A stretch of 64,000 bases of DNA, from assembly GCA_963575645.1 (NCBI GenBank), contig OY754468.1:1054001-1118000 (forward strand), given 5' to 3'. Below are positions 1,323-51,665 of the stretch, piece by piece; positions within the stretch are counted from its first letter, which is position 1, and each line of letters begins with the position of its first letter. The notes beneath the pieces are model-generated. The model saw nothing but the letters and a program-made list of their open reading frames with translations, searched no databases and was not told the DNA's origin. The position numbers were made by a program, and so were the translations under genes. This DNA is from Xanthostigma xanthostigma (taxonomy: Eukaryota; Arthropoda; Insecta; Raphidioptera; Raphidiidae).

Positions 1323-1989
1323 GACGTGATAACGTCTTATAAATTGATGAATCACCAATCTTATAAATTGATAAAACACCGGCTGCATGTTCGAAAAAGT
1401 GTAACGTAACGTTCCTAACGTTCCTAACGTTTCGCCTGACCCTGTGCGTGCTTTTTGCTAATTTCTCGCTCAATTTAAATCAGATCGGTTTGAAACCAGT
1501 CTTAAACGAAAGAGGAGAACATTTTACATAGATTTCGTATAACAGAATTTGCCTAAACAGTTTTTTTATACAAATTTATATAGAAAAATATTTTATACAA
1601 ATTTATATAGAAAAATAGCTGTATAAATGCAATGTTGTGTAATGCATGGCGCGACGCGGTCGGTTGTCTTTGTTTGCCGTACATGGAAATTAGAAGCAAA
1701 CGTATGTCTTGTCTTAACATGAAAACAGCTGCATTTCTAATGTTTAATTCAATTTTTTGACATTAGTATATTGTGAAATGCAAAGCCTTCTAAGTTAAGT
1801 ATTGGAATAACTAATTATTATTAGAACATAATACTTTGTAAGTTGCAAACGTCACTTTTGACATTTCTTATCATTTCGACACCAAGGATAAGCGGATTGA
1901 AACCAAATTTTGGGAGGTTTAGGTTATGTATTACGGAATACGTTATCACGTAAAACTATCGTCCGTAAACCGACTTTACAGACAACCAA
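1323..1989 (+). mobile_element. Family B element, interior type 1
   Basis: Starts GACGTGATAACGTC and ends CAGACAACCAA, and is flanked on both sides by exactly five T residues (1318-1322, 1990-1994). The interior (about TTGCTAATTTCTCGCTC through ACCAAATTTTGGGAGG) is shared with copies at 12962-13614 and 17580-18244. No coding capacity. The transposon superfamily was not recognised. Confidence 0.75.
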
Positions 1990-2059
1990 TTTTTAAATAT
2001 GATTGCAGGTATTCAATTCGTTTCTAATTTTGCACACTGCTTATAACGTTCTTCTTTTT

Positions 2060-2345
2060 GTTGTATTACAATATGAAGCTCAGATGACCGATCGAAGAAA
2101 TATTTTACTAAAATTGTCATATAGAGGCGCAAGTAGCAAAAGCGTTGAGCTAAGCCGTCAGATGGCATCATGCAGCATTGCTGTGACGTTGTTCAGCGTT
2201 GCTCGCTGTTTCAAAATTACAGTCTTCAGATGGCAGTATGCAGTATTGTATTACAATATGAAGGTCAGATGACAGATCGAAGTGTTGACGTTGTTTCAAA
2301 ATTAAAGCCGTCAGATGGCAGACGTTGTTCAGCGTTGCTGTATTT
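2060..2345 (+). repeat. Degenerate local repeats
   Basis: TATTACAATATGAAG followed by a TCAGATGACxGATCGAAG block occurs at about 2063 and 2248. CAGATGGCA occurs near 2158, 2227 and 2310, and CAGCGTTGCT recurs. This looks like an old tandem array of roughly 185-bp and shorter units. The open frames at 2003-2352 are by-products. Confidence 0.5.
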
Positions 2346-3099
2346 TAATTAATTTACAAAAAAACAAAAGCAACAATAAATTTTTTAGTTGTCGATGTCA
2401 GTAGAGCAAGCAATTATCTGTAAAATGATATATAATTTATGTGGAGAAATTGTGAGGTTTTTTCTAAAAAGTGAGGCAAACATCTTTAACCTTAGCGTAT
2501 TAATATATATGATAATTTCTTGTAATACCGGAATTCCCGGGAAATGGGTTTTATTTCCCGGTACTAAAGGCGATGAAATTTCTCGGGAATTCCCGGGAGC
2601 AATCCCTAGATACGACCCAAACAAATAACATCCATTTTTGGTGAGTCCGGTGTTGTATATTATATATACACATATAGCAAAATTGAATTCTGTTGAAATC
2701 TATTTTCACTTTTCAATATTCATAACAAATACAAAGTATATTAGAGACAAGTTTAACAGTTTAGCTGATAAAAAATTATAATAAATAGCTGCGGTGTCGA
2801 CAAAAAAACGTGATTACTTATGCCAGTAAAAGTTGATTACCGACTTTGTTTTGTATATCAATGCCAAGCAAAGAACCGCAACTGGTTTATCGATTTTAAA
2901 TCAACGAGAGAAAGTATGCAGACAACGCCGCCGTACCTATACGAAGCACAAAAAATCGATACATATATTATTTAATTTATAATACAGTAGCCTTTACCTG
3001 CGGCTTCACTCACGATATATACAGAGTGACCAGGCAGTAAAAACTAAACTACGTTATTTTCGAATATAACAGAGGTCTATAGCTTAAGCAACGAATAAT
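2346..3099. other. AT-rich spacer with GGAATTCCCGGG repeats
   Basis: No gene seen. At 2525-2605 GGAATTCCCGGGA occurs twice, with TTTCCCGG between the copies. The paired 79-residue frames on opposite strands here reflect this symmetry rather than coding. Confidence 0.4.
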
Positions 3100-4267
3100 T
3101 CTAGATGGAAAAGTCGAAAGCAGAACATTTGACTTAGGAACTTTGTTTGGACTAGTTAGGAGATAAACATACTAAAAGTCCTTACCCCTCCGAGGTACGC
3201 CCGAAGGGGGGGAGCACAAAGAAGGTCCCGTTTTTTGGTATTTTGCTTTCATCTCGAAAACGGTACGTCGTACGAAATTTTGTTGGAATACATAATGAAA
3301 GCTGATAAAATTCTCTACAACTTTAGTTTTCACACTTTTTATCTATCTCCAATCTTTGCCTAGCTATGAGCTCCGAAAAATGGTCGATTTTCAAAAATGT
3401 GTTAAATTCTCTGTAGCACATTGTAACAATACGAATTTGTCAAAATCATTTCGTATCGCTCATCCACACTATTAAAAACACCCACACACTATTAAAAAAT
3501 AACATAAGCTGGGAGTACCTCCACACAGGGCCCTCTTTCCCACTGGGCACTCTGGCACGTGCCCAGGGCCCCGCGATCGATAGGGACCCCCTAGTTTAAT
3601 GGTATACTAAGTACCTAAACTGTTTTAAACAAAAATCATCAGTGAACTATTTTTCATATACTTATTTTTTTTGTGTCCTTCATGTTAAAATTGGGAACGT
3701 GATCCTTTTAAATATATGCATTTTATATCACATTCCTCGACTTAGAATCTAGAACCTTGTTTATCTATTTTCTTTGTCTATTCTAACAAAATAGTGCTCT
3801 GTTAAGGTCATAGGGGCCCCATAATCCTAATGTGCCCAGGGCCTTCAATAGGTTAAAGCTTATGTTATTTTTTAATAGTGTGTGGGTGTTTTTAATAGTT
3901 TGGATGAGCGATACGAAATGATTTTGACAAATTCGTATTGTTACAATGTGCTACAGAGAATTTAACACATTTTTGAAAATCGACCATTTTTTGGAGCTCA
4001 TAGGTAGGCAAGGATTGGAGATAGATAAAAAGTGTGAAAGCTAAAGTTGTAGTGAATTTTATCAGCTTTCATTATGTATTACAACAAAATTTCGTACGAC
4101 GTACCGTTTTCGAGATGAAAGCAAAAAACCAAAAAACGGGACCTTCTTTGTGCTCCCCCCCTTCGGGCGTACCTCAGAGGGGCAAGGACTTTTAGTATGT
4201 TTATCTCCTAACTAGTCCAAACAAAGTTCCTAAGTCAAATGTTCTGCTTTCGACTTTTCCATCTAGA
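3100..4267. mobile_element. 1.17-kb fold-back element
   Basis: Two arms of about 410 bp (3100-3510 and 3857-4267) are nearly perfect inverted copies. They start TCTAGATGGAAAAGTCG and end at its complement. The spacer (3511-3856) has GTGCCCAGGGCCCC and CCTAATGTGCCCAGGGCC. Non-coding. Confidence 0.8.
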
Positions 4268-4323
4268 TGCCCCTTATAAGCACTCATTGACTAAACTACT
4301 ATGCGTGGATCGTTTTACTAACG

Positions 4324-4911
4324 TATAATACGCGCCACGAATCTAAAAGGCTCGGAAGTTACATGCGAATGCGGGCTTGTGCTTGTACAGTCTGTTAAAA
4401 AACTACAAACTTGCAACTCAACAAAACTAAAATAGCATTGGAGATTGACTCTATTCAATAAATAGAGTAACTGTGATCCATTGAAGTTAAAGATGAGTAT
4501 TTGGAAAGAATTCCGTGGCATAAGGATCGAAAATGAAGCAATACTGAGATTTTTTTAAACTTGCATTTAATACTAACGTTTCGATACGTTACTGAAGATG
4601 ATACAAAACGTATCGAAACGTTAGTATTATAAATGCAAGTTTAAAAAAATCTCAGTATTGCTTCATTTTCGATCCTTATGCCACGGAATTCTTTCCAAAT
4701 ACTCATCATTAAAATAGCAATAACAACTTGACAATAGCGTACTCGACTGTACTTTAAAGCAGGAAAGCGACAAGTGACAAAGGCAACGAGCGATCACGGC
4801 CAATCGCCGATAGCTGGGAGGTGGCGGGAGCCCCAACGGCTCTAAAATGTGCCTTTGCGACACTGTTTGTGATTAGCTTCCGAATATTTTAGATCCGTGG
4901 CGCGTATTATA
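4324..4911. mobile_element. TATAATACGCGCCACG MITE, copy 1 (interrupted)
   Basis: Inverted ends read TATAATACGCGCCACG, then ATCTAAAAGG. Two further copies at 10911-11226 and 43526-43854 are near 320 bp; this one is longer because the hairpin at 4492-4707 is inserted in it. The frames at 4318-4521 and 4663-4863 lie inside it and are not genes. Confidence 0.75.
4492..4707. mobile_element. Fold-back insertion with CTGAAGA/CGAAACGTT centre
   Basis: Inverted arms of about 100 bp starting GATGAGTATTTGGAAAG. The centre is CTGAAGATGATACAAAACG then TATCGAAACGTT. Arm sequence (GTGGCATAAGGATCGA, TTGCATTTAATACTAACG) is related to the hairpin at 36097-36315. Probably Penelope-derived (inference). Confidence 0.6.
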
Positions 4912-4985
4912 ATTATGAAGCGGTACTGCAACCTGCCTTAATCTATTACTTAATCTCGCCAAACTAACCTATAAACATATTTTGA

Positions 4986-5299
4986 AACATTCAATAATTT
5001 GAATGGTTTATTCTATTCATATCCATGTTATTGAATGACTGTAAATGTTCATGGGTATTTGGATTGACAAAACAGTTATTATTTAAACAATTAGTTAGTT
5101 AGTTATATTTTCATGACTTTTGTACTTGTAAAATAATATTTATCTTTTGTTTTTTGTATTCTTGTTACAGTACCTGAAGAAGTCTCGAGAGAGACGAAAC
5201 GTCGTACGATGATATTAAAGAATTGTTTAAATAATAACTGTTTTGTCAATCCAAATACCCATGAGCATTTACAGTCATTTAATAATTTGAATGTTCCAA
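4986..5299 (+). mobile_element. Inverted-repeat element around a hammerhead-like motif
   Basis: The outer arms, ATTCAATAATTTGAAT on the left and GGGTATTTGGATTGACAAAA with its complement on the right, are inverted copies flanking the motif at 5158-5223. Similar design to 4492-4707 and 36097-36315. Confidence 0.6.
5158..5223 (+). ncRNA. Hammerhead-ribozyme-like motif
   Basis: Stem I outer AUUCUU (5158-5163) pairs with AAGAAU (5218-5223). Stem I inner GUAC (5170-5173) pairs with GUAC (5204-5207). Core CUGAAGA is 5174-5180. Stem II GUCUC/GAGAC (5182-5186, 5191-5195) is closed by GAGA. GAA is 5196-5198, followed by palindromic ACGU as a minimal stem III and C as the cleavage-site base. One extra A separates the core from stem II, so catalysis is uncertain. 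Confidence 0.45.
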
Positions 5300-5731
5300 A
5301 CTTCGTGTTGAGAGCAAAAACATGTCACTGACACAAACAGCAGAGATAACCGAAATAATCTTGAAGCCAGACTCGATGACAGAATAAAAAACTGTTATGA
5401 AACTCGACAAAACAAGAGAAAGAGGAAATTGCAAGTCATAATATTGTAATAATAAAAAGCAGAACGAAATGACATACCGTATTTGTCTCTTTGACGAAGC
5501 CTACAGAGTTGAATCAGTATAGAAATTTCGAGTTACTTAACAACTGACTGATTACACGAACGGCTTAGCTACGCATTCACACTCGACTGAACAAAATTCA
5601 ATGAAGCGAATAATTTATTGTCTTTAAATTTAATATTTAATTTCAGTTGTAACTATAATCACAAAATACATTGTTCTCTGGAGTTTGATCAGGGTTGCCA
5701 ACCAGAAATTCGTCAGCCGGTGCTGGGAATC
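5300..5731. other. No feature seen
   Basis: AT-rich sequence without a recognisable gene or repeat boundary. Confidence 0.4.
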
Positions 5732-5739
5732 CACTAGAA

Positions 5740-6163
5740 CAGCCATACTCAAAGTGTGCTCCGCGGAACCCTAGGGTTCCGCGAAACCCCTGTGGGGGCT
5801 CCGCAAGAATTTAGAAAAATATTAAAAACACCTCTCTCTCTGTTTGAGGCGATGTTCACGAGGCGCAGCCAAACTTAGTCGCCACCACAGTACAAATTAT
5901 TGTCCCTTTGATAAAAGCCGCCCCTGGGATTAGGCGCTATAGTTATGAACAAAACATAGAGTCGAGAATTGCTTGCACTGTCAATTTGTATTTCTATTTT
6001 TATTTCGGATTATAATACTATTAATAAGTAACTGTTACATTGTCCTCGTATTATGCTTATTAATAAAGAATGCATATAAAGACATTTTTGTTTTATTGAG
6101 GGTTCCGTCAAGTATTTCGCTTTCCAAAAGGGTTCCGTCACCAAAAAGGTTTGAGAGCCGCTG
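5740..6163. mobile_element. hAT-like MITE
   Basis: An 8-bp target duplication, CACTAGAA, flanks it (5732-5739 and 6164-6171). The ends are CAGCCATACTCAAA and, inverted, CAGCGGCTCTCAAA. A perfect 20-bp palindrome, GCGGAACCCTAGGGTTCCGC, lies near the left end. The 76-residue frame at 5973-6203 runs through it and out of it, so it is not a gene. Confidence 0.85.
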
Positions 6164-6833: not shown

Positions 6834-6974
6834 GACGTGATAACGTCTTATAAATTGATGAATCACCAATCTTATAAATTGATAAAAGACCCTGCACAAA
6901 CCTTACGGGATTTGGATCTCGGTTAAATTAATCGAAAATGGTTTTATTCCATAGTTTAGTTAAAAACCAATAGA
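6834..6974 (+). mobile_element. Broken family B start plus fragment of TIR element E
   Basis: 6834-6887 repeats the first 54 bp of family B. From 6888 it switches to the first part of element E (GACCCTGCACAAACC to CCAATAGAT), with an internal deletion relative to 17178-18374, and then a complete family B copy starts. Confidence 0.65.
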
Positions 6975-6978
6975 TTTT

Positions 6979-7540
6979 GACGTGATAACGTCTTATAAAT
7001 TGATGAATCACTAATCTTACAAATTGATGAAACACCGGCTGCATGCACGAAAAAGTGTAACGTTCCGCCTGACCCTGTGCGTGCTTTTCTCGAAAACGGC
7101 CCTAACGATTTGGATGAAATTTACTGAAAAGGGATTTTGGGGGGCAAAAAATCGTTTTAGCTAGGTCTCATCTCTCGAAAAAATCGTTTTCTTACAAATT
7201 TTATCATTATAAAAATCAATTTTTTGACGTATGAAAATACTTAAATATTGTAAGTAGGTTTTGGAATTTTATATAAACAGTGAAACAATTGTTTTATAAA
7301 TAGTATGACAGTTAATCTTTGAGACTTAAATAAATACGAAAGAAAGAAAGTTAATAAAAAAAAATATTTTTATAGGTGGTGAGTAATTTAATAAATAAAA
7401 TTAACCTAAATTTGAAGCGAAAGATACAATATCATAGATTCGAATTATTATAATTATTATATGTAGAATTTAGGTTATGTATTACGGAATACGTTTTCAC
7501 GTAAAACTATCGTCCGTAAACCGACTTTACAGACAACCAA
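6979..7540 (+). mobile_element. Family B element, interior type 2
   Basis: GACGTGATAACGTC start and CAGACAACCAA end, in a T run (4 before, 7 after). The interior includes GATTTGGATGAAATTTACTG and GGGGGGCAAAAAATCG, shared with 8462-9028, 11702-12287 and 41137-41719. The MYYGIR frame near the right end recurs in every copy but is short and non-coding. Confidence 0.75.
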
Positions 7541-8461: not shown

Positions 8462-9028
8462 TTGGTTGTCTGTAAAGTCGGTTTACGGACGATAGTTTTA
8501 CGTGATAACGTATTCCGTAATACATAACCTAAATTTATATAACAATTATAATAATTCGAATCTATGATATTGCATCTTTCGCTTCAAATTTAGGTTAATT
8601 TTATTTATTTAAATTACTCACCATATAATATAATTGTTTTTTTTAACTTTCTTTCTTTCGTATTTATTTTAAGTCTCAAAGATTAGCTGTCATAATATTT
8701 ATAAAACAATTGTTTCACTGTTTATATAAAATTCCAAAACCTACTTACAATATTTAAGTATTTTCATACGGCAAAAAATTGATTTTTATAATGATAAAAT
8801 TTGTAAGAAAACGATTTTTTCGAGAGATGAGACCTAGCTAAAACGATTTTTTGCCCCCCAAAATCTCTTTTCAGTAAATTTCATCCAAATCGTTAGGTCC
8901 GTTTTCGAGAAAAGCACGCACAGGGTCAGGCGGAACGTTAGGAACGTTACACTTTTTCGTGCATGCAGCCGGTGTTTTATCAATTTATAAGATTGGTGAT
9001 TCATCAATTTATAAGACGTTATGACGTC
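8462..9028 (-). mobile_element. Family B element, interior type 2
   Basis: Minus-strand copy, from CAACCAA complement TTGGTTGTCTG to the complement of the GACGTG end (here GACGTC by a base change). It sits between the two 115-bp direct repeats. Confidence 0.75.
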
Positions 9029-10910: not shown

Positions 10911-11226
10911 TATAATACGCGCCACGAATCTAAAAGGCTCGGAAGTTAGACGCGAATGCGGGCTTGCGCTTGTACAGTCTGTTGAAAAACTATACAAACT
11001 CGCAACTCAACAAACCTAAAACAGCAATAACAACTTGACAATAGCGTACTCGACTGTACTTCAAAGCAGGAAAGCGAAAGTGACAAAGGCAACGAGCGAT
11101 GACGGCCAATCACCGACGAGCGCACGTTCCGTGCAGGTAGCTGGGAGGTGATGGGAGCCTCAACGGATCTAAAATGTGCCTTTGTGACTAACTTCCGAAC
11201 CTTTTAGATCCGTGGCGCGTATTATA
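10911..11226. mobile_element. TATAATACGCGCCACG MITE, copy 2
   Basis: Uninterrupted copy, 316 bp, with inverted ends TATAATACGCGCCACG and internal GGCTCGGAAGTTA. The TA at each edge suggests a TA target (inference). Confidence 0.8.
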
Positions 11227-11640: not shown

Positions 11641-11701
11641 TTCTCCATTAAATGAGAGAACGTGCTAACAAGCAACCAAAGAAATTTAGTGGACAAAAAA
11701 A

Positions 11702-12287
11702 TTGGTTGTCTGTAAAGTCGGTTTACGGACGATAGTTTTACGTGATAACGTATTCCGTAATACATAACCTAAATTTATATAATAATTATAATAATTCGAA
11801 TCTATGATATTGCATCTTTCGCTTCAAACTTAGGTTAATTTTATTTATTTAAATTACTCACCATATAATATAATTGTTTTTTTTTAACTTTCTTTCTTTT
11901 GTATTTATTTTAAGTCTCAAAGATTAGCTGTCATAATATTTTGAAAACAATTGTTTCACTGTTTATATAAAATTCCAAAACCTACTTACAATATTTAAGT
12001 ATTTTCATACGTCAAAAAATTGATTTTTATAATGATAAAATTTGTAAGAAAACGATTTTTTCGAGAGATGAGACCAAGCTAAAACGATTTTTTGCCCCCC
12101 AAAATCCCTTTTCAGTAAATTTCATCCAAATCGTTAGGGCCGTTTTCGAGAAAAGCACGCACAGGATCAAGCGGAACGTTACGAACGTTACGACCGTTAG
12201 GAACGTTACACTTTTTCGTGCATGCAGCCGGTGTTTTATCAATTTATAAGATTGGTGATTCATCAATTTATAAGACGTTATCACGTC
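11702..12287 (-). mobile_element. Family B element, interior type 2
   Basis: Complete minus-strand copy with A runs of seven and six residues at its edges. It inserted about 60 bp after the Penelope-like remnant. Its TAACGTTCC-type mini-repeats are expanded. Confidence 0.75.
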
Positions 12288-12517: not shown

Positions 12518-13711
12518 CAGCGTTGCCAGACGTCCCGATTTTTAAATCAAAATTAAATGTCCCGCGCGGGACAAGCTCAGTCCCGCTTTTCGGGGATAAC
12601 TTTAAAAGAAGTTAAATCTTCACAGAAATATCATGAATAAGTAAATAAGTAATTCTTATAAATAATTATTCTCTTATTCTAAGTTGCAATTTGTAACACT
12701 CACTCCACAGACTATTGTTTGAAACGCCATATTTTTCTAATGAATAAAACTTTTTTGATTTTGATTTCTGTTTTTTTTTTTTCTTAATCTGAAGACGAAT
12801 AAGACTCAACTATTTAACGATAGGGTAAATCTGATTTAAAATATTATATTTTTATTAAAATACATTTTCTATGTCACGTAAACGTAATTTTAATTCAAAA
12901 ATTCAAATAAAAAGATAAATATTATGTAGGTATTTAAAAACTTCTGATTATTTACGTTTTTGACGTGATAACGTCTTATAAATTGATGAATCACCAATCT
13001 TATAAACTGATAAAACACCGGCTGCATGCACGAAAAAGTGTAACGTTCCTAAAATCCTAACGTTCCTAACGTTCGTAACGCGTAACGTTCCGCCTGACCC
13101 TGTGCGTGCTTTTTGCTAATTTCTCGCTCAATTTAAATCAGATCGGTTTGAAACCAGTCTTAAACGAAAGAGGAGAACATTTTACATAGATTTCGTATAA
13201 CAGAATTTGCCTAAACAGTTTTTTTATACAAATTTATATAGAAAAATAGCTGTATAAATGCAATGTTGTCTAATGCATGGCGCGACGCGGTCGGTCGTAT
13301 TTGTTTGCCGTACATGGAAATTAGAAAATAACGTATGTCTTGTCTTAACATGAAAACGGCTGCATTTCTAATGTTTATTTTTTGACATTAGTATTTTGTG
13401 AAATGCAACGCCTTCTAAGTTAAGTATTGGAATAACTAATTATTATTAGAACATAATACTTTGACAGTTGCAAACGTCACTTTTGACATTTCTTATCATT
13501 CCGACACCAAGGATAAGCGGATTGAAACCAAATTTTGGGAGATTTAGGTTATGTATTACGGAATACGTTATCACGTAAAACTATCGTCCGTAAACCGACT
13601 TTACAGACAACCAATTTTTTTACTATGTCCCGCTTTCGACGAAAGAATCCCGCTGTTTTCACTCAAAGAGTTCCAAAATCCCGACATGGCAAAAAAAAAC
13701 TGGCAACGCTG
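12518..13711. mobile_element. hAT-like element containing family B
   Basis: Perfect 8-bp duplication GTCGGTAG (12510-12517, 13712-13719) and ends CAGCGTTGCCAG and CTGGCAACGCTG. The hAT interior has GTCCCGCGCGGGAC. It was later split by the family B copy at 12962-13614, so the original element was about 540 bp. Frames at 13535-13768 and 13551-13754 are composites of the two elements. Confidence 0.88.
12962..13614 (+). mobile_element. Family B element, interior type 1, nested in hAT
   Basis: Starts GACGTGATAACGTC after five T and ends CAACCAA before seven T. The interior is shared with 1323-1989. Confidence 0.78.
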
Positions 13712-15480: not shown

Positions 15481-17177
15481 GTAAAAATTGGATAACTGAC
15501 TGACTGACTCATCAACGCCTTATTCAAAACGCTGAAGCTAGAAATTTGGACAACAGGTTCCTCTCTTATCTAGGCAGGCAACACTGCTCTAAAAAGGCAA
15601 AGGGCAGCAAGTGACATTTTTTTAAAAATGAGTTCATACTTGAAACCAACGATAACAGTAAGTGCTGCAACAATAATTTTATTGTCTTTAAAAAATGTTT
15701 CCCCCATGTTTTGGTTTCCATAATCTAAAATTCTGGACGATCAATACATTTTTAGTAAATCTTGATTTACTCAAATTCATAAGTTGGTCACTTACTGCCT
15801 TTTGCCTTTTTACGGCAGAATAAGAAGGGACATTTAGAAATTTTACCCCCTCGATGGTGAAAAAGGGGTGTAGAATTAAAAATAAATTGGAAAGTATACT
15901 TGGTTCAAATAGTTCTTTATATTATTACGCTACAGGAAAAGGAAAATGTCGGATGAGAGTTGAGCAGAAATAGTGATATGTGACCGGAAGATGTTGGACT
16001 CGGCAAGCCAATGTTTTATAAAAACAAAACACTAACGGTATACGGCGCTTGTTTTACTGTTGTAATAAAATGTTTACTTACTTGACATGTTTTTTAAATG
16101 TTTTCTGTATAAAAATGACATTTTTATAGCTCAGAACAATGACTGCATGCATTATAAAACAATAATCTCTATTTCTTATCTAAAGATAAAAAATATTACT
16201 CATTAATTTAAAAAAAGGTAAGTAAAGAATATAGGTATTTGCTTTTTGATAAAAAATGTATTAGTCACTACTTAAGCGATTTTTCGGTAAAAAAATTGGA
16301 AAATCTCTATTTGACGTCACTAATTCAGTCAGAAGTATTTGAGTCCAGCACCAATTAACACTTTTGCAATTTATTATTTTTAACTAGCATTTTAGTAATA
16401 TTTTTTTTTATTTATGTCTATAATTTCAATTTGAAGTCGTGCTCTAATATTAGACAATGAATTATATCGATTAAAGAGCCCTGAAGAAATCAGAAATTAT
16501 CGTCGAAACGTTGGCAATAAAAATGTATATGTTACGGTCTATACCCGAATTCGGTTAATGGCCGAAGTAAATGCGCAAAACTACGAATATTGCCCAAACC
16601 CGAAATCTTACATTTAAACGGGTATTGAGTGTTATAAAATGAGCAAAATTAGTTGGACAAAACTAGTTCTGTCTATTTCTGACAGACACAGGGGGTAATA
16701 CACCCCCCCCCCCCAGGATTTCAACAGTACCGCAGGTAACCAGCCACAACAGACGAAAAAAAATCTTTTTGTTGCGGAAATGAAGGGACCTTTTTGTGTT
16801 AATAAATCTTTAAAAAAATATTGATTTTTTTTATTTACACCCCCTCAGAAAAAAAATATCTACGCCGTTGTTTGTTATGTGTCCAGACACAGTATTAAAA
16901 AAAATATTTTCTATTTTACAACGTTTATAAAAAAAGTCGTAAAATTTGCATTTGATTAACTTTGAATACTTTTATTGACTTCGCATTTCATTAATGCGAA
17001 CGATTACTGCAGATCAAAGTCGGCCGAGACACTTTTATAATCTGTTAAACTGAATAACTTAAACGTTAAACTTCAGATAAAATATTCATTAAGAATAACT
17101 TATAAAGAAAGTTAATTAAAAGTCGAACGAATTAAAGATAGACAAAAAAAAACTCGCTGTGGAGAAACATGTTGCAA
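15481..17177. other. AT-rich, repeat fragments
   Basis: Contains an inverted pair (AAAGGCAAAGGGCAGCAAGT near 15592 and its relative near 15788), a 14-C run near 16701 and one CTGAAGA/CGAAACGTTGGC motif at 16478-16515. In that motif GCC/GGC can pair as stem I, but stem II is poor. No gene seen. Confidence 0.4.
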
Positions 17178-18374
17178 AAGACCCTGCACAAACCTTATGG
17201 GATTTGGATCTCGGTTAAATTAATCGAAAATGGTTTTATTCCATAGTTTAAAGGTCGCTAAGAAAAAGGGTCCGTAGGCGCATTGCCTAAAAACCAATAG
17301 ATTTTTAGCTACAGATATGTTTAGCGAGATTTTAGATATAGGGATATCCATTGAATTCACAATCTTAAAAAATCCTAACCTCTAGAAATGTTTTCGAGTG
17401 CGCTGAATCCGAATACGACATTATTATTTTACACAGGGTGACACCTTCCAACATTACCTTGTTTTAGACAATTTTTCTATTTCTAAAAAAAGCATAAAAG
17501 TTGAACACGGAGCATGTTCGTGAATTCAATGGATATCCCTATATCTAAAATCTCGCTGAAAATATCTGCAGCTAAAAAATTGGTTGTCTGTAAAGTCGGT
17601 TTACGGACGATAGTTTTACGTGATAACGTATTCCGTAATACATAACCTAAACCTCCCAAAATTTGGTTTCAATCCGCTTATCCTTGGTGTCGGAATGATA
17701 AGAAATGTCAAAAGTGACGTTTGCAACTTACAAAGTATTATGTTCTAATAATAATTAGTTATTCCAATACTTAACTTAGAAGGCGTTGCATTTCACAATA
17801 TACTAATGTCAAAAAATTGAATTAAACATTAGAAATGCAGCCGTTTTCATGTTAAGACAAGACATACGTTTGCTTCTAATTTCCATGTACGGCAAACAAA
17901 GACAACCGACCGCGTCGCGCCATGCATTAGACAACATTGCATTTATACAGCTATTTTTCTATATAAATTTGTATAAAATATTTTTCTATATAAATTTGTA
18001 TAAAAAAACTGTTTAGGCAAATTCTGTTATACGAAATCTATGTAAAATGTTCTCCTCTTTCGTTTAAGACTGGTTTCAAACCGATCTGATTTAAATTGAG
18101 CGGGAAATTAGCAAAAAGCACGCACAGGGTCAGGCGGAACGTTACGCGTTATGCGTTACGCGTTACACTTTTTCGTAAATGCAGCCGGTGTTTTATCAAT
18201 TTATAATATTGGTGATTCATCAATTTATAAGACGTTATCACGTCAAAATCTATTGGTTTTTAGGCTATGTGCCCATGGACACTTTTTCTTAGTGACCTTT
18301 AAACTATAAAATAAAACCATTTTCGATCAATTCAACCGAGAACCAAATACCACAAAGCTTGTGCGGAGTCCTTT
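17178..18374. mobile_element. TIR element E, copy 1, containing family B
   Basis: Long inverted ends (CTGCACAAACCTTATGGGA, then TCGGTTAAATTAATCGAAAA) pair with the region 18250-18374. The interior includes GATATAGGGATATCCATTGA and its inverted copy. Family B (17580-18244) interrupts the right arm. A second copy is at 29292-29795. Confidence 0.7.
17580..18244 (-). mobile_element. Family B element, interior type 1, nested in E
   Basis: Minus-strand copy beginning TTGGTTGTCTG after an A run and ending CACGTC before AAAA. Confidence 0.75.
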
Positions 18375-21223: not shown

Positions 21224-21706
21224 TATTCAACTCATGCGCGCTATTCATGTTTTATCATGCCTAAAAACCGAACCCTAAATAGCCATTTACCGACTGGTGA
21301 CAATTACTTGTCATAACTCAATGAAGATTCCTACTAGCTCGGCCATTGTGGAGTAATGAAAATAAACGTAACTATTTTCTGAGTCGTAACGAAATAGTCG
21401 GTAACAACAGCTCCGTTGTTACCCATTGAGGCTAAAATTGAGAGGCCGAATGTTTTCGACATGGAGTTTATTCATAACCGGCTAACCTCAAACCAAAACA
21501 TTGAATCGTGCTGTTTGGTGCTGTTAGTATTGACAGTTTTTTTTATAAAGAAATAAATAGATATTTACAACATCTCATTAATAACAATAAATAAAACATG
21601 AATAACGCGCAATTGTTGAATAAAATTATGGGCGTAACTTGTAGGCTAAGTCATGACCTGTCAGCGCGATGAATGACTTAGACTACTAGTTACGCCAATA
21701 ACTATT
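21224..21706. repeat. 483-bp dispersed repeat G, copy 1
   Basis: Nearly identical to 26936-27411, from ATTCAACTCATGCGCG to GCCAATAACTATT. The right end is a long hairpin (GGCGTAACTTGTAGGCTAAG against CTTAGACTACTAGTTACGCC). High identity implies recent movement or duplication. No coding frame. Confidence 0.8.
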
Positions 21707-22600
21707 GCGAGCTGGGAGCCTAGAGGATTATCAGATATTATCCAGTTTTTTGTACTTCTACGTTCCGTAAAGAAATGACGGGGTCAAAAAAAAAAACACT
21801 CAAGACGTTAAGAAATGTTATTTTCCGCATGTCTGCGTCGAAGAATTTTCTTTAATTAACAGTCGCTTCTGCAAAAATTCATCTGAACATGTTTTAAGTG
21901 AAACTTCTTTAGCGAAATTGAAGTCGTGAACAGTTCTTCATACTAATTTAATAGCTAAGGCCATTGGAGTGTATATTAAGTGACTGATATTTTCAATCGA
22001 AAAGAACGCGGACTTCCGTCGAAGGGAGATCGTGTGTCATTTTATAAGATGACTGTTGAAGACAGAAATGCGCAAAAGTAGGCAACGAGCGTGAAAGTAT
22101 CTCGTACATTGTTTATCGCCTGTATTAATAGTTTATTATATTAATAAATGCATGTGGAAAGACAGTTTAGCAACAACGTGAGACCAACGGTAAATATCTA
22201 GCGATTGTTGTTAAAAACGTTAAGAAATATGCAGCGAAACAATAAATAACTAATAAAAACAGATTAGCAGTTCATTAACATAGTTTGTGAAACATTTATT
22301 CCAGATAATGTCAGTCTAGATAACGCAATTAAAAAAAAAAAAAACTTTTAAAAAATCGAATCTCGTTCACAAAAGGCACCGAAAGGACGAAAATAATAAA
22401 ATTTTGAGGTTTAATTACAAAAACGTTTTACATATTTACTTTTGTTAAATTGGCGTCGACCTAAAAATTTTGATTATTTATCTCCTATTAGCAGCTTTTT
22501 TGAAGGCGACTCAATTTTGTATCCCCTAGTGAATTTGCACGTTTGTAAATATTGCTTGACTTCTTTTTTAAATTCGAGTACTTACACTTAGAAATACATA
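21707..22600. other. No feature seen
   Basis: AT-rich. GTGAAACTTCTTTAGCGAAA at about 21899 is a short motif also present near 24328 and, inverted, near 25027. Confidence 0.4.
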
Positions 22601-22606
22601 TATATA

Positions 22607-22962
22607 CAGTAGAACATTTGTAAATCGAACTTCAAAGGAGACGCCAAAAAAATCGAGTTAAAGAATTTTCGACTTATGAAGAATTTCGATTTTCCATAAG
22701 GAAATATTCGACTTGTAGAGGTGTTGAGATTCATTCAAACCAATTTTGAGTTGCTATGTTCGAGATACAGAGTTCCAATTTAATTTTTCGAGTTACGAAG
22801 CGAAAATATGCAGATACCGAAATGACATGTAGGGACTCACTGATTATTTCGACCTATAGAGGGTTGAGATTTCGAGTAATATATAGGCTTTTGGGGCTTG
22901 AAGGGAAGAGAACAAAACATTTTTCGAGTTTTGGTATTTTTTGACTTAAAGAAGTTCTACTG
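22607..22962. mobile_element. pogo/Tigger-like MITE
   Basis: TA on both sides (22605-22606, 22963-22964) and ends CAGTAGAACATTTGTAAATC and, inverted, CAGTAGAACTTCTTTAAGTC. This TIR pattern is typical of pogo/Tigger elements (family knowledge). The 62-residue frame inside is not a gene. Confidence 0.8.
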
Positions 22963-23200
22963 TATAAAAAAAGCCACTAAACCGATTTAATTAAAATAAA
23001 AACCACCCTGAAGGTATGCCCAATAGAACCGAAATCAGTTGATAAATGGTGGAGATATGGGGTCAGTTGCCCGCAATGACGTCATTTCCACCTTCGCAGC
23101 CAGCGCGGCTACCAGTACAAGTCTCAGCAGCGAAACTAGCGTCGTGTGGAGCCCGCCTTATAAGAGAGTTCCTAGTCTAGCAGCAGCTTAAAAAACATGC

Positions 23201-23656
23201 AATTAGGCTTTTGAAAAAAAAAAATAATTATCGATTTTTTTATTGTATTTTAAAACTTTATTATAAATAATATTGATAATCGATGCGAAAAACTTTCAAA
23301 AAACTTTTTTTAAATTAATTATAAGCAATTTAAAATTGATAAAATATTTAAAAAAATCACGTGACTGCAAACGCACTAAAATTGTTTTTGACAGTTGTGA
23401 CGTCATAATGGTAAAATGTATATACGCAGTATACTATCAATGGCTTCTAAATGTGTATTAACTAAAACATTATGACGTCACATTATGTTCGGGAAATGTC
23501 GGCGCGTTCTCGGAACTGGGTACAAAAATTTATTTTTAATTTGATATAACTTTTGAATTATAACGAAAATAAAAAAAAGAAAAATAGTTTTGTTATAAAA
23601 CTTATATACGATCTTTCCATTTATGACAAAAACAAATTTCATTCAAAAGCCCAATT
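23201..23656. mobile_element. AATT-edged TIR element H, copy 1
   Basis: Ends AATTAGGCTTTTGAA and TTCAAAAGCCCAATT. The interior is shared with 56787-57501, including CACGTGACTGCAAACGCAC and GGAAATGTCGGCGCGTTCTC. AATT may be a 4-bp target duplication or part of the TIR. Confidence 0.8.
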
Positions 23657-23693
23657 CCTTATAGATATAAATAGCCAATGTTAACACAAAATT

Positions 23694-23928
23694 AGGGTGA
23701 CCAACCGTCTCGGATTTCCCGGGACAGTCCCGCATTCGCGTCCGGTGTCCCGGATTAGAGAAAAAGAGAAAATGTCCCTCATTATTACGTGAACACTAAC
23801 AATGCCCAATAAACATTTATATTTTAAAAAAAAAAGTAATTCCTTTTCCTGCAGGCTGATGTAAGGAAGTCTTTTTTCAGACAAACGTTTTCTGTCCCGC
23901 ATTGTGTTACGATAAAAATGGTCACCCT
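23694..23928. mobile_element. Short TIR MITE with AGGGTGACCA ends
   Basis: Inverted AGGGTGACCA/TGGTCACCCT ends. The interior has GTCCCGCATTCGCG and CTGTCCCGCATTGTG inverted motifs. No clear target duplication. Confidence 0.6.
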
Positions 23929-25100
23929 ACACTAAGTAAGAAATTTGTTTCGTGTGAACCTAGCTTAAGTAAAGTTCTTCTAACCTAGCGCCGCGCACTC
24001 TTTATGTTATAGCGTAATCTCGCCAAGTCGCCGCGAGAAGATAACTGCAAATAACAAGTGAATCGACAGGCGCGTTAGTTACGGCGTGAGTCCACGAGAT
24101 AGCACCACATGTATCTGTCGTATATTACTGCACGTAACGGCTCGTTAAACGAGCTTTCACTACGCCAGTTAACAGTGCTTAAAAGCTACAATTCAACGAT
24201 TCAAGTGTAAGTACAGTTGCCGACGCAACGCTAGCATTTGTTTTGTGCACATTGACCGGATAATTTGAAGATAAAAACCAGCGATACCTTTAAATAAAAC
24301 AACGAGCGGATCACACTCATATAAGCGAAGTGAAACTTCTTTAGCCGTTTTTTTTTTAATTTTGCGTTACCAAGGATTCTATTGTATTTCCCGCGGCAGC
24401 TGAATCATTTTTACCATTCCAACCCGCTAGTGGGGAATGGTACTAGTTTAGGTCAAAATTTTACAAAGTTTTTTCGTTTTGAGGTCCCCTAATTACACAA
24501 AAGTCCGTGCGTCTGTTTGTCTATGAGCACGATTCAGATCAAACGGATGAACGGATTGAAACCAAATTTTGGGCGGATGTTTGGTATACAATTATGAAGA
24601 GCCCTATTGCTTTTGGAGAAAATCGGCGCACGCGCAGAAGAGATATATGCTATAACGTTGTTTTTTTTTTATATAATAATGGTATACTTTTTATAAGGGC
24701 TTATTATTTTTTTTTTGTTTTGTTTATAGTTTCGGAAATATTTTGAAAATAAATAAAAATCAGCTGTTTTTTTTCGTTTTGTAGATCTGTCAGAAATAAA
24801 CTAATTAAGCACGCTTTGATTAATTTTTACACGACGTGGAACATATTATGTAGGTAACCATGCCAACGAATAGCAAATATCATATTGAATACTAGCCATT
24901 ACCCGCGTCACCTCACGCGATATCAGAAATTTTCTTTTCTTTATTATACTATATATCAAATGTAAATATTTTTGACGTTGGAATGGTCCCGTCGCCTGGA
25001 ATTTTCTCTTTAACATTATAGAAAGTTTCGCTAAAGAAGTTTTACTTCAAAAACTGGTCGAGTGCGAGTTGGGCTCGCCTAACGACGATTCCGTACACGT
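23929..25100. other. No gene; dispersed repeat fragments
   Basis: 24505-24600 carries AAACGGATGAACGGATTGAA and GGATGTTTGGTAT, also found in the spacer of the palindrome at 47049-47790. Otherwise AT-rich. Confidence 0.5.
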
Positions 25101-28885: not shown

Positions 28886-29290
28886 GAAGCGGACGAGCGT
28901 AATGTCACACTTGAAGCGGTGGAGCGTAACGCCTCACCAATTGATTTTACTACTCATAAAATTTCCGTACCGGGCCTAATAACTCAAAATCGTTTCTTAA
29001 GAAGTAAACTCCAAAACAAAATGTAAAATGCACTAATCTCATTCGCTAGCAAATTAACTTTGTTTTGGATAACACATTGTTTAAAATTTCCCGAAGATCA
29101 CAGTTACATGTGCACCACTATTCATTAAGACGAAGCTTCAGGAAAAACGAAGTTGCGCTCTACACAAAACGAGAAAAACTTTAAGGAACTCCCGCTTCCT
29201 TCGACCAACGTGAAATAGTGTGTGCTATACGAAACGAAAGAAAAGAAGGTAATCAGCCGAAACAGGCCCGCAATCAGGGAACATATTTTA
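28886..29290. other. No feature seen
   Basis: TTGAAGCGGACGAGCGTAA and TTGAAGCGGTGGAGCGTAA form a small direct repeat at the start; nothing else recognised. Confidence 0.4.
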
Positions 29291-29291
29291 A

Positions 29292-29795
29292 AGGAGCCCG
29301 CACAATCCTTGTGGGATTTGTTTCTCGGTTGAATTGATCGAAAATGGTTTCATTTTATAGATTAAAGGTCACTAAGAAAAAGTGTCCATAGCCTATAAAA
29401 ACCAATAGATCTTTAGTTACAGATATGTTCAGTGAGATTTTAGATACAGGGATATCCATTGAAATCCCAAACATGTTCCATGCTCAACTTTTGTGCTTTT
29501 TTATAGAAATAGAAAAATAGTCGAAAACTACGTAATGTTGGAAAGGTGTCACCCTGTATAAAATAATAATGTCGTATTCGGATTCAGCGCACTCGAAAAC
29601 ATATTTGTAGAGGTTAGGATTTTTTAAGATTGTGAATTCAATGGATATCCCTATATCTACAATCTCGCTAAACATACCTGTAGGTAAAAATCCATTGACT
29701 TTTAGTCTATCTTAGTGACCTTTAAACTATAAAATAAAATCACTTTCGATCAATTTAACCGAGAACTAAATTGCATAAGGTTTGTGCGGGGTTTA
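29292..29795. mobile_element. TIR element E, copy 2 (uninterrupted)
   Basis: Inverted ends near GCACAATCC and GGTTTGTGCGGGG, with TCGGTTGAATTGATCGAAAA and its complement. Shows the element without family B. The minus frame at 29484-29675 is internal and not a gene. Confidence 0.7.
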
Positions 29796-31968: not shown

Positions 31969-32042
31969 TTAAACACATTTGTCTTTTTGGGCTTGAATCG
32001 ATATTTCACGAATTATTTCAAGCGGTAATGACTGTTTCTTTA

Positions 32043-32271
32043 TCTACACTAATATTATAAAAAAATTAAAGTTTGTAAGTTTGTATGTAGGAGGTAATCT
32101 CCGAAACTACTCATTCGATTTCATTTTTTTTTCAACAGTATTTAGAATGGACCTTCAAGATGGTTAAAATAAAATAAAAGCGCTTTTTGTGGAGACCAAT
32201 TTTGCAACGTAAGTCGACGAAAAATGCGGTGGCAATCTATAAATTCGGGCGAAGCCGGACTGAGCCGCTAG
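32043..32271 (+). mobile_element. Short Helitron, 229 bp
   Basis: Starts TCTACACTAATATTATAAA and ends in a CGGGCGAAGCC hairpin and CTAG. Single 5' end, so it resembles the basic unit of 6269-6674. Confidence 0.75.
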
Positions 32272-41050: not shown

Positions 41051-41840
41051 CCAGGCCCGGCTTCGCCCGAATTTGTAGATTGCCGTCGTTTTTTTCGTCG
41101 ACTTACGCTGCAAAATTGATCTCCACAAAAAAAAAATTGGTTGTCTGTAAAGTCGGTTTACGGACGATAGTTTTACGTGATAACGTATTCCGTAATACAT
41201 AACCTAAATTTATATAATAATTATAATAATTCGAATCTATGATATTGCATCTTTCGCTTCTTTAGGTTAATTTTATTTATTTAAATTACTCACCATATAA
41301 TATAATTGTTTTTTTTAACTTTCTTTCTTTCGTATTTATTTTAAGTCTCAAAGATTAGCTGTCATAATATTTATAAAACAATTGTTTCACTGTTTATAAT
41401 ATAAAATTCCAAAACCTACTTACAATATTTAAGTATTTTCATACGTCAAAAAATTGATTTTTATAATGATAAAATTTGTAAGAAAACGATTTTTTCGAGA
41501 GATGAGACCTAGCTAAAACGATTTTTTGCCCCCCAAAATCCCTTTTCAGTAAATTTCATCCAAATCGTTAGGGCCGTTTTCGAGAAAAGCACGCACAGGG
41601 TCAGGCGGAACGTTACGCGTTACGAACGTTAGGAACGTTACACTTTTTCGTGCATGCAGCCGGTGTTTTATCAATTTATAAGATTGGTGATTCATCAATT
41701 TATAAGACGTTATCACGTCAAAAAATGTTTTTATTTGAAACCCTGTAAATATTGACAAAAAAGAAAATTTAAATCGGATGAGTAGTTTCGGAGATCACCT
41801 CCTACATCCAAACTTTACCTCTTTATAATATTAGTATAGA
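41051..41840 (-). mobile_element. Helitron interrupted by family B
   Basis: The minus-strand 5' end TCTATACTAATATTATAAAG is at 41840 and the 3' hairpin at about 41055 (CGGGCGAAGCCGGGCC; terminal CTAG is CTGG here). Family B splits it at 41137-41719. Confidence 0.7.
41137..41719 (-). mobile_element. Family B element, interior type 2, nested in Helitron
   Basis: TTGGTTGTCTG after a long A run and CACGTC before an A run. Confidence 0.78.
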
Positions 41841-47790: not shown

Positions 47791-47972
47791 TTATTATTAT
47801 TATTATAATCCAATGTATCATTTATGTACTTATTTTTATGTAAGCTATATACTTACTTATATATTTTTTATTTTATTTTTTGCGTAATGATAACCGTTCT
47901 ATTCTATTTTTGATCTCGCTACTGCCACAGGATTACCTTTTGTAACGATAACATTTATGTATTATATATGAA

Positions 47973-48598
47973 CTAGCGGTCCCGCCCGGTTTCAGCCGGG
48001 TGCAAAAGAACGAATGGGGAAGGAAGGGACATGAGTACACACATTCATCTTAGTTTACCGAGATGAATGTTGTGTCCAAATTTCATGATGATCGGAGTTA
48101 CCGTTCAAAAGTTTTTGTCGATAAAGAGCAGTATTTAAACTTTTTTTAACTAATACTTTTTTTTAAATGAATTAAATAAAATTAAAATAAATTTAAATGT
48201 AAGCCTAGAAGAAAGCAATGTAAAAAATAAAAAAAAAAATAAAAATATATTCACCCAACGTGGGGCTCGAACCCACGACCCTGATATTGACAGTCGCATG
48301 CGCTACCGATTGATCTACTTGACGTTGTGTTCTTTCATCACTAATATGAGTATATCTAGTTAGGGCATTTCACATGAACAGAAGCTTATTTTTGAGATAC
48401 TTTTTGCAACATTTTTCATTAATGCTCCGCTCCTAATGATCGTAGCGTAATATTATATAGCCTATAGCCTTCCTCGGTAAATGGGCTATCCAACAAAAAA
48501 AAATTATTCAATTTGAACCAGTAGTTCCTGAGATTAGCGCGTTCAAACAAACAAACAAACAACCAAACAAACTCTTCAGCTTTATATATTAGTATAGA
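47973..48598 (-). mobile_element. Lep1-like Helitron carrying a tRNA-like segment
   Basis: Minus-strand TCTATACTAATATATAAAGC to CTAG. Compared with 56-412 it has about 270 extra bp, including the tRNA-like sequence at 48250-48326. Confidence 0.8.
48250..48326 (-). pseudogene. tRNA-like sequence inside Helitron
   Basis: Has TAGATCAATCGGTAGCGC (A-box like), a CTGTCAA anticodon loop (GTC) and a perfect T-arm GTGGG-TTCGAGC-CCCAC (B box). Acceptor and anticodon stems are degenerate. Related copy at 49131-49205. Confidence 0.55.
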
Positions 48599-48861
48599 TT
48601 ATTAATAATAAAATTATTCTTATTCTTATTAGTGTACTGTATTTCATTCATACATTTTATTTTAGAAATGACGCAAGATCATAAAACGTATATATGCTTG
48701 TCAGTACTATTAAAATTGTTTTTAAATGAAATATAAATGATAATAATTATCGTTCATTTATTACTTATTTATAACAATAACGACCAGCTGTTCTTAGTTA
48801 TTTACTATTATAAAACAAGGTTCAATTATGCCAAGACGAAATGATTATTATTATATGATAA

Positions 48862-49456
48862 CTAGCGGTCCCGCCCGGTTTCACCCGGGTGCCAAAGAAC
48901 GAATGGGGAAGGAAGGGACATGAGTACACACATTCATCATGTTGTGTCCAAATTTCATGATGATCGGAGTTACCGTTCAAAAGTTTTTGTCGATAAAAAG
49001 CATAGTAGATATTTAAACTTTTTTTAACTAATAATTTTTTTTAAATGAATTAAATGAAATTAAAATAAATTTAAATGTAAGCTTTAGAAGAAAGAAATGT
49101 AAAAAATAAAAAAAAAATAAAAATATATTTGCCCAACGTGGGGCTCGAACCCACGACCCTGATATTGACAGACGCACGCTCTACCGATTGATCTACTTGT
49201 TGTGTTGTTGCATCACTAATATGAGTATATCTAGTTAGTGCATTTCACATGAATAGAAGCTTATTTTTGAGACACATTTTGCAACATTTTTTATTAAAGC
49301 TCCGCTCCTAATGGTCGTAGCGTAATACTATATAGCCTATAGCCTTCCTCGGTAAATGAGCTATCCAACAAAAAAAAATTTTCAATTTGAACCAGTAGTT
49401 CCTGAGATTAGCGCGTTCAAACAAACAAACTCTTCAGCTTTATATATTAGTATAGA
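48862..49456 (-). mobile_element. Lep1-like Helitron carrying a tRNA-like segment, copy 2
   Basis: Same structure as 47973-48598, 595 bp, about 260 bp from it in the same orientation. Confidence 0.8.
49131..49205 (-). pseudogene. tRNA-Asp-like sequence inside Helitron
   Basis: Minus strand: TAGATCAATCGGTAGAGC, then a CTGTCAA loop that would place anticodon GTC, a variable region of normal length, and T-arm GTGGG-TTCGAGC-CCCAC. Segment lengths suit a tRNA, but the anticodon and acceptor stems pair poorly, so a functional tRNA is unlikely. Confidence 0.55.
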
Positions 49457-49587
49457 TGATAAAAAAAATTATGAATAATACGAAAAACAGAAAATTATAA
49501 AGGGAATTTATTTTATTAAATAAACAAATACCATAGCGGCGTTGCCAGACGTACCTATTTTTGCGAGGAACAACTATAGTGTCATAA

Positions 49588-50173
49588 TCATATTAATATT
49601 ATAAATGCGAATGTAAGTTTGTTTGTTACGCTTTCACGCAAAAACTACTTAACCGATCATCATGAAACTTTGCACATACACTCTTGAAGGTATTAGAAGT
49701 AACATAGGATACTTTTTATTAAAAAAAAATAAAAATTTTTTACGAAAAATAAGAAAGGGTTGAAAACATTTTTTGGGCCCAAAAATACCGAAAAATTTCT
49801 CCGAATCGTTTCAAAATTGAAATTTAACCCTTTAGTAATGATTAAAATGTGCTATTAAAATTTCATTAAAATCGGCCCGACAGGACCGGACTTACAAATT
49901 TTATGAAAACGAAATATTATAAATGCGAATGTAAGTTTGTTTGTTACGCTTTCACGCAAAAACTACTTAACCGATCATCATGAAACTTTGCACATACACT
50001 CTTGAAGGTATTAGAAGTAACATAGGATACTTTTTATTAAAAAAAAAATAAAAATTTTTTACGAAAAATAAGAAAATTGTTTGTCAAAATATGTGCAATA
50101 CCTCAACCCCTGATATGCATGTCAAAAGTCGATTTCCATCTCAATCGCGGGCGTAGCCGCGGGTAGCGGCTAG
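49588..50173 (+). mobile_element. Helitron with two tandem 5' ends
   Basis: TCATATTAATATTATAAATG start; the 5' block repeats at about 49915. It ends in CGCGGGCGTAGCCGCGGG hairpin and GCGGCTAG. Confidence 0.82.
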
Positions 50174-51214
50174 TTTGTCATAAATCATTGTCAACACATT
50201 GAGGAGCGGAAATTCTTCAGCAGACAAGATCCTCGAAAAATAAATCGCTAATTTTTATGAAGGTTAATTTTTTTTAAATTCTCATTAAAAAAAAGAGAGT
50301 GTGCTTTAGACCACACGACTGAAGTAAAACTTCTTCCTGCCATAATTTGTTATTATTCACCCGAAAATTAACAAAATATGAACTTTAAAATGAATTTACA
50401 ATTTTATTCACTTTAAACGTAGAATATTTAATGTATTGAACAAAATATTACTTTTTTCTGTCACCCGATAGCGCCACTGGCAAGTAAAGTATGTGTCATT
50501 CTATTCTAAGTACTGCTTATATTTTCGGCCACATGATGGCGTCACTAGCCAGCGAAGTATTTGTTTCGGCCACATGATGGCGCTACTAGCCAGTGAAATA
50601 TTTGTCATCCTCTTTCTATCTTCACTAACTTATATTTCCCTCTCAACTTCCGTTCGCCTCGCCCGATCACAGTTTCCGTAAATCTCTCGTCACGCATCCA
50701 CCAGCTTACTCCCCAAGTAAAGCGTGTGTAAAGAAGTTTTACTTCAAAAACAATAAAAGACTGCTATTTTAGAACAGATATTTGTTTTTTAAAGCGAGTA
50801 GCAACGCCTGATATTGAAAAAGAAACTGTTTTGGCCATCACTAACTCAACGCACGTTTATTGTTTGGGGCCTGTCCTTTGTTAATATCATCTCGGCCTGC
50901 TTCTATTATCGTACGGATTTTATTTGGCGTGAATTTTGATGTATTTAATGTCATAACCTTTGTTCTTCATTGACCTACGGACTCATTTACAGCCGTACAA
51001 AATTACTCTATTAATTAAACATTATTTGCATACGGTAAACATCTATTTTATGCCTTATATACGTTTATAATTAAAACAGTTCATCGAGATAAACTCAACA
51101 TTTTTATTAATTTGACGATACGAACGTTTATAGACCGTTAAAGTGAAAATGATTTGACTGTAAACATTTCCACAAAATCGCAAAATGTTGCAAAAACATG
51201 TATATCAATATGAT
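50174..51214. other. No gene; small direct repeat
   Basis: TTTCGGCCACATGATGGCG with CACTAGCCAG occurs at 50523 and 50566, with a diverged third unit near 50460. The rest is AT-rich. Confidence 0.45.
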
Positions 51215-51665
51215 ACACAATTTGTCAAAATTGTACCTGCGTGCGATGATTTGAACTTGTTAAAAAATTGGTTGTCTGTAAAGTCGGTTTACGGACGATA
51301 GTTTTACGTGATAACGTCATAAAGAAACATTGAAATGCGTACAAGCCGACGCTTGGGCCGATCGTGCCTCTCTATCGCTTATACCGCCGGTGTTTCATCA
51401 ATTTATAAGACGTTATCACGTCAAAAACGTTAAAAAAGAGTTAAAAACTGTGTTTCATCAGTTTTTTTATTGTATCTTGTCTAAATTCAATCGCAAAAGG
51501 GTGCGAATTTGAGGGAACATTCATATGAACCTGATATACAATCTGTCAAAATTTAATCTAATTGCGATGACTTGAACTTGTTAAAAAACGTTAAAAAGGT
51601 TTAAAAAACTGTATTTCATCAGTTTTTTTGCTTGTATCTTGTCGAAATTCAATATTGTAATCATG
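51215..51665 (+). repeat. Diverged direct duplication, one copy with insertion
   Basis: TTGAACTTGTTAAAAAA then CGTTAAAAA and TTTCATCAGTTTTTTT occur twice. The first copy is split by the family B derivative and the second (about 51569-51640) is an empty site. Confidence 0.75.
51268..51422 (-). mobile_element. Family B derivative with third interior
   Basis: 155 bp with standard ends (TTGGTTGTCTG side and TTATCACGTC side) but an unrelated middle (GAAATGCGTACAAGCCGACG region). Confidence 0.8.

Follow-up and report, generated by a model that had tools for sequence, protein, structure and literature searches.

Short transposons with constant ends and exchangeable interiors in Xanthostigma xanthostigma are very probably non-autonomous Helentrons

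A family of short transposons with common ends was analysed in a 64,000-nucleotide stretch of Xanthostigma xanthostigma DNA (Insecta; Raphidioptera; assembly GCA_963575645.1, contig OY754468.1, positions 1,054,001 to 1,118,000 of the forward strand), hereafter the window. The copies are almost certainly HINEs, i.e. non-autonomous Helentrons, which are rolling-circle elements of the Helitron superfamily. We place them in this class because the same ends bracket the remains of a Rep/helicase/endonuclease element, because the insertions lie in runs of T and because no duplication other than of Ts was found at the clean empty sites. An earlier note, made from the letters of the window, could not assign the family to any superfamily; this no longer holds, as the ends fit the anatomy of HINEs and Helentrons given in the available part of the source (Thomas et al. 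2014, PMC4067079) and bracket an element coding for Rep and helicase. We regard the family as a new one of a known kind, which may already sit in a repeat library. Among the matches listed, text searches with the end words returned no paper on the family; the 12-mer was unmatched, and the listed matches held only the two 10-mers.

Eight complete copies were found within the window, with both ends common to all:

1323-1989, plus strand: HINE, interior type 1, 667 bp; 5 T on each flank; paralogous empty site in loci L039/L040
6979-7540, plus strand: HINE, interior type 2, 562 bp
8462-9028, minus strand: HINE, interior type 2, 567 bp; A followed by 8 T on the 3′ flank
11702-12287, minus strand: HINE, interior type 2, 586 bp
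12962-13614, plus strand: HINE, interior type 1, 653 bp
17580-18244, minus strand: HINE, interior type 1, 665 bp; its empty sites lie at 29289-29662 and 17176-17360
41137-41719, minus strand: HINE, interior type 2, 583 bp; empty-site match at 32041-32258 is poor
51268-51422, minus strand: short HINE, 155 bp; empty sites in locus L046 and, within the window, at 51653-51489

The earlier note had listed seven copies and a 155-bp form with common ends, and all of its coordinates were confirmed. The word GACGTGATAACGTC is exact at the 5′ tip in seven of the eight copies, with one change in 8462-9028, and CAGACAACCAA forms the 3′ end in all eight. A second ACGTGATAACGT core stops 38 nt before the 3′ tip in every copy (one change in 6979-7540), which bears out the arrangement described earlier, with a core at the very tip on one side and further in on the other.

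The 5′ and 3′ end words were also sought, with up to two substitutions each, in the 339,890 bases examined, part of which overlap. This search yielded 23 distinct complete copies of 155-690 bp, on which all palindrome, spacing, hairpin and T-flank counts are based, together with two lone 5′ ends and three lone 3′ ends. The HINE criteria applied included palindromic subterminal repeats of 12-15 bp, a TT or T-rich target, no target-site duplication and ends matching those of a Helentron with Rep, helicase and endonuclease. In HINE orientation a copy reads T-run, GACGTGATAACGTC, interior, ACGTTATCACGT(A), 38 nt closing in CAGACAACCAA, T-run. The parts of the 1323 copy are as follows:

1323-1336, plus strand: 5′ palindromic subterminal repeat GACGT-GATA-ACGTC
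1335-1380, plus strand: 24-bp tandem repeat of two units behind the 5′ subterminal repeat
1407-1431, plus strand: 9-bp tandem repeat TAACGTTCC, a microsatellite-like block near the 5′ end
1939-1952, plus strand: 3′ palindromic subterminal repeat TACGT-TATC-ACGTA, with a 12-bp core that stops 38 nt short of the 3′ tip
1965-1979, plus strand: 3′ hairpin GTAAA-CCGAC-TTTAC, separated from the 3′ tip by 10 nt

Both subterminal repeats are 14-mers, fully palindromic in 22/23 copies at the 5′ end and in 17/23 at the 3′ end. The 5′ repeat lies at the tip itself, or 4-5 nt in if the flanking Ts are counted as part of the element, and the distance from the 3′ core to the 3′ tip is 38 nt in 22 copies and 45 nt in the remaining one (L060). 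According to the available part of the source, HINE subterminal repeats are 2-4 nt away from the 5′ terminus and 38-60 bp away from the 3′ terminus, a short palindrome being located 8-35 bp from the latter (PMC4067079). The hairpin word GTAAACCGACTTTAC is exact in 22/23 copies and lies 10 nt from the tip in 22/23. The two subterminal hairpins fold clearly (z-scores of -3.68 and -2.51).

Exact occurrences of the ends were counted throughout the 623-Mb genome, with the reversed pattern as control. The 14-mer at the 5′ tip occurs 24,546 times (12,396 + 12,150) and its reversed control once, and the 3′ end word TTTACAGACAACCAA occurs 21,646 times (10,900 + 10,746) and its control three times. This corresponds to about one end per 25-29 kb, and with 24,546 exact 5′ tips against a single one read backwards the sharing of ends is not due to chance. 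TTTT precedes 22,800 of the 24,546 5′ tips (92.9%) and follows 20,901 of the 21,646 3′ ends (96.6%). Among the 23 complete copies, at least four Ts stand before the 5′ tip in all and after the 3′ tip in 20, the exceptions being L043 with 3 T, L046 with 2 T and window copy 8462, where an A comes before the T.

Element-free paralogues spanning the joined flanks were found for 6/23 copies. Clean alignments were obtained for 1323, 51268, 17580 and L043; 41137 and L003 align poorly on their left side. The HINE of L043 is a clean insertion relative to its paralogue L044. No duplication other than of Ts was seen at the four clean sites. The T counts, empty against filled, are 6 versus 5 + 5 at 1323, 6 versus 5 + 6 at 51268 and 5 versus 4 + 6 at 17580. 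Such ambiguity over the Ts at insertion sites has also been reported for HINEs (PMC4067079, available part).

The coding relative is a 7,127-bp element on the minus strand at G000:C5:10936346-10943472, on the same contig and lying between the same two ends. In the reverse complement of C5:10936001-10949000 (C5x), the only plus-strand 5′ end within the allowed mismatches is at 5529, after TTTTT, and the only plus-strand 3′ end stops at 12655, before TTTTTT. Between them lies an open Rep frame of 1,162 aa (DUF6570, 61.2 bits; PF14214, 92.2 bits) holding SPHAH and EYVVEYVNK, which we take to be the HUH and two-tyrosine motifs, and a helicase piece in a separate 152-aa frame (PIF1, 60.4 bits). Comparison of the Rep ORF with solved structures gave no match. 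The C5 element is matched by the Helentron proteins of L041 and L039 with 438 and 277 bits, and by the canonical Helitron L048 with 38 bits. The earlier note had proposed looking for coding sequence between the ends; what was found there is Rep and helicase, which points to a rolling-circle element with an HUH Rep and not to a cut-and-paste transposase. A reversed HINE is nested in the element at C5x 11696-11944. Within it there is also a stretch resembling an inserted inverted-repeat element.

Both ends of the C5 element are matched by all 23 complete copies, the 3′ match of L060 stopping 9 bp short of the C5 end owing to a small duplication. Positions 1-35 of the 155-bp copy correspond to C5 element positions 1-35 (100%), 36-91 to 93-148 (98.2%) and 90-155 to 7062-7127 (100%); similarly, the 245-bp copy of L043 consists of C5 element positions 1-171 (96.5%) and 7060-7127 (98.5%). 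Judging by these alignments, the 155-bp form is a deletion derivative, a C5 Helentron with its middle removed.

The longer copies resemble the C5 element differently. Interior types 1 and 2 are similar to it at the ends only, and are themselves partly like dispersed repeat pieces; they may be captured filler, the source of which is unsettled. Thirteen of the 23 copies have a trimmed interior of more than 60 bp, and these fall into four clusters: type 1 (five copies, 90.3-98.9% identity), type 2 (four copies, 95.2-97.4%), a third cluster (three copies, 94.3-96.9%) and the interior of L001 by itself. Of the 92 plus-strand 5′ tips listed for the first 3 Mb of contig C1, 70 have a listed 3′ end as partner at a distance of 174-1,217 bp; 24 pairs are spaced at 174-248 bp, five at 398-416 bp, 33 at 549-688 bp and eight at 856-1,217 bp. 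Copy search, empty sites, interior clustering and C1 pairing thus agree with the idea, put forward in the earlier note, of transposons whose ends are fixed and whose interiors can be swapped. Its count of three unrelated interiors stands in part: the two long ones are unrelated and the short form is unlike both, but the short form is a Helentron deletion derivative and more than three interior types exist, the further ones outside the window. An origin of the long interiors from locus t (L056+L052, with helicase/endonuclease at C2:26874990-26876750) was considered and rejected, since similar pieces of t (71-97%) recur elsewhere in the sequence examined and are therefore dispersed repeat pieces that say nothing specific about where the interiors came from.

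In its layout the family resembles the HINEs of Metaseiulus occidentalis, Culex and Drosophila as described in the available part of PMC4067079: palindromic subterminal inverted repeats, one near the 5′ tip and the other at 38-60 bp from the 3′ end, a 3′ palindrome (weakly folding here), tandem repeats or microsatellites, insertion into T-runs with an uncertain number of terminal Ts, and copies far outnumbering the coding partner. It differs from them in its end sequences, as compared with published ends that are visible in part, and in that at least four long interiors and several short forms occur behind a single set of ends. DINE-1 of Drosophila belongs to the same superfamily and shares the general layout, but its subterminal repeats are, according to the same partial source, not themselves palindromic, whereas those of this family are (PMC4067079). 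Lepidopteran non-autonomous Helitrons such as Hel-2 are likewise short and gene-less, with a 3′ hairpin, a subterminal inverted repeat and an internal microsatellite; however, the ends of Hel-2 are 5′ TC and 3′ CTAG and it is inserted between A and T, unlike this family (PMC4344730, available part).

Within the genome, the Helitron Rep profile PF14214 found 89 places, and the loci with a fused endonuclease were listed by a query with a Helentron endonuclease. A C-terminal endonuclease is the hallmark of Helentrons. At locus t, a family 3′ end lies ~550 bp downstream of the helicase/endonuclease frame, in the coding direction, and t and the Helentron L041 share a continuous BLAST match through helicase and endonuclease (E = 1e-30). 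Endonuclease sequence that is 93-95% alike led to C5 and two C10 loci. C5 and t encode remains of Rep, helicase and endonuclease that are related to the intact Helentrons L041 and L039 of the same genome; C5, however, is broken, with its endonuclease partly deleted. Complete HINEs were found near Helitron-type genes in L043 and L046. The family ends are absent from L039-L042, L044, L045, L047, L048, L049, L050, L051, L053-L055 and L059, and also from the Rep-only pieces L009-L038, but these do not extend to the element ends. No intact Helentron with the same ends was present among the loci read, a reading that left out several remnant places, the sequence beyond the gene at two of the four Helentron family B loci, and most Helentron 5′ flanks. 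Exact scans of viral contigs and of genome contigs gave 0 matches.

A number of observations weigh against assigning the copies to the Helentrons. The C5 element is not intact, its frame being broken after the Rep ORF, and its endonuclease remains are without ~390 bp that are present in t. At t itself, no 5′ end was found within 11.3 kb upstream, and the C-terminal piece of the endonuclease scores 17.0 bits for PF03372, where the cut-off is 24.5. Moreover, t, C5 and one of the C10 loci (C10a) all break behind the endonuclease at the same point, AATTTAAGTA, with three different continuations, which leaves room for some of the 3′ ends there to be separate HINE pieces. Past the break, t continues into 333 bp common to many HINEs (95% with L060), and C5 and C10a into an A-run and then reversed HINEs with differing interiors, the flanks beyond being different; the A-run as a repeated target accounts for part of the common break and not for all of it. 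The 3′ hairpin folds weakly (z-score of -1.10, with 29/200 shuffles as good). Lastly, the 4-5 T gained at the filled sites could either belong to the element or come from duplication, so that a T-only duplication is possible.

The positions of the common break are t 11012-11025, C5x 11680-11690 and 2130-2138 of the reverse complement of L058, each of which continues into a different HINE-related sequence.

Given the common break and the broken state of C5, we retain the explanation that the C5 co-occurrence is accidental, i.e. that lone HINE 5′ and 3′ ends bracket an unrelated Helentron and that the true partner is another, though we hold it to be improbable. The ends are common enough for such a pairing, and further HINEs are nested in and beside the C5 element. 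However, the sole plus-strand 5′ and 3′ ends of C5x flank the coding region, t independently has a 3′ end downstream of its helicase/endonuclease (with no 5′ end in the 11.3 kb upstream), and the HINE of L043 corresponds to the first 171 bp and the final 68 bp of that element. Without the C5 pairing, the family would on its anatomy still belong with the Helentrons. Somewhat less improbable, but still unlikely, is that the family remains mobile after the loss of its own coding parent, with intact Helentrons whose own ends are different, such as family A or D, acting on its ends in trans. If the family has outlived its parent in this way, end recognition by Helentrons would be looser than thought.

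A cut-and-paste DNA transposon, resembling a miniature inverted-repeat transposable element (MITE), with a T target-site duplication by chance and moved by an unidentified DDE transposase, would also be short, gene-less and very abundant, with inverted-repeat words near both ends. Elements of the DINE kind used to be annotated as MITEs, according to the available part of PMC4067079, and the gain of 4-5 T at 1323, 51268 and 17580 is also expected from a T duplication of 4-5 bp. Yet the tips GACGTGATAACGTC and CAGACAACCAA are not inverted repeats, the inverted word lying 38 nt inside on one side, and the same-end element carries an HUH Rep and helicase (no systematic search for a DDE gene between the ends was made); the C5 element thus makes this explanation very unlikely indeed. 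Least credible of all, to the point of being negligible, is a derivative of a canonical Helitron, with 5′ TC, 3′ CTRR and insertion between A and T. It would share the rolling-circle class with a 3′ hairpin, and the genome does have a very young canonical-looking family (14 loci), but the tips here are GACG and CCAA in T-runs, on which grounds this identity was rejected, and both full-length canonical loci read (L048 and L049) are without these ends.

For HINEs dependent on Helentron proteins, transposition may be pictured as follows. Rep from Helentrons of the C5 kind would nick the 5′ T|GACG end in trans, and strand displacement driven by the helicase would copy the element as far as its 3′ subterminal palindrome and hairpin, which serve as the stop signal. 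The displaced single strand would then join into a T-run, perhaps one opened by the endonuclease; Rep would nick at both ends, all proteins being supplied in trans. Only the ends would be required, presumably ~30-130 bp at the 5′ side and ~50-70 bp at the 3′ side. If only the ends are needed, the interiors are free to vary, and deletion derivatives and copies with captured filler would all be mobile. The varied interiors behind constant ends therefore offer a usable case for finding which end sequences Helentrons need. With ~21,600-24,500 exact copies of each end, the family is a major repeat of this genome that would otherwise stay 'unclassified' or be mistaken for a MITE, and the tie to a coding element gives complete Helentron boundaries together with passengers.

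One further piece of the family in the window was missing from the copy list of the earlier note:

6834-6978, plus strand: 5′-end-only fragment, ~63 bp of HINE 5′ end and ~75 bp of local repeat; adjoins the HINE 6979-7540

The ~75-bp local repeat is 98.7% identical to 17176-17250. Taken as one unit, 6834-7540 has T-runs at both outer edges and looks like a composite with captured host sequence; its junction occurs at one place only in the whole genome, and no empty site spanning it was found genome-wide.

Other rolling-circle elements of the genome were characterised alongside. The top PF14214 family has frames of 1,555-1,560 aa and is canonical-looking. Its member L048 (C1:50131001-50140500) has an open 1,555-aa Rep/helicase frame and no endonuclease domain. 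Together with 13 loci among L024-L038 it makes up 14 loci (its own included) that are 99.89-100% identical over 3,540 bp, a very recent burst; the apparent 3′ CTAG was identified by eye only. Helentron family A (L041/L042, L053 and L054) is present in three copies with 3′ parts 99.5-100% identical, the L041 copy having an open frame of 2,241 aa. Its 3′ end, which differs from that of the HINE family, has the hairpin GTGCGAGTCCGACTCGCAC, and TTGACCGG ahead of a T-run, and an 83-bp stretch near it recurs inverted ~0.5 kb upstream. Helentron family B (L043:1-1014) carries a ubiquitin carboxyl-terminal hydrolase domain behind the endonuclease (PF00443, 45.7 bits), and shares its frame with the endonuclease at C1:60111026-60112012; in family D (L039) an OTU domain takes the place of PF00443. 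OTU is the only extra Helentron domain mentioned in the available part of PMC4067079. Downstream of family B, L043 (from ~2765) and the reverse complement of L044 (from ~2360) run into tandem repeat arrays with units of ~265-275 bp.

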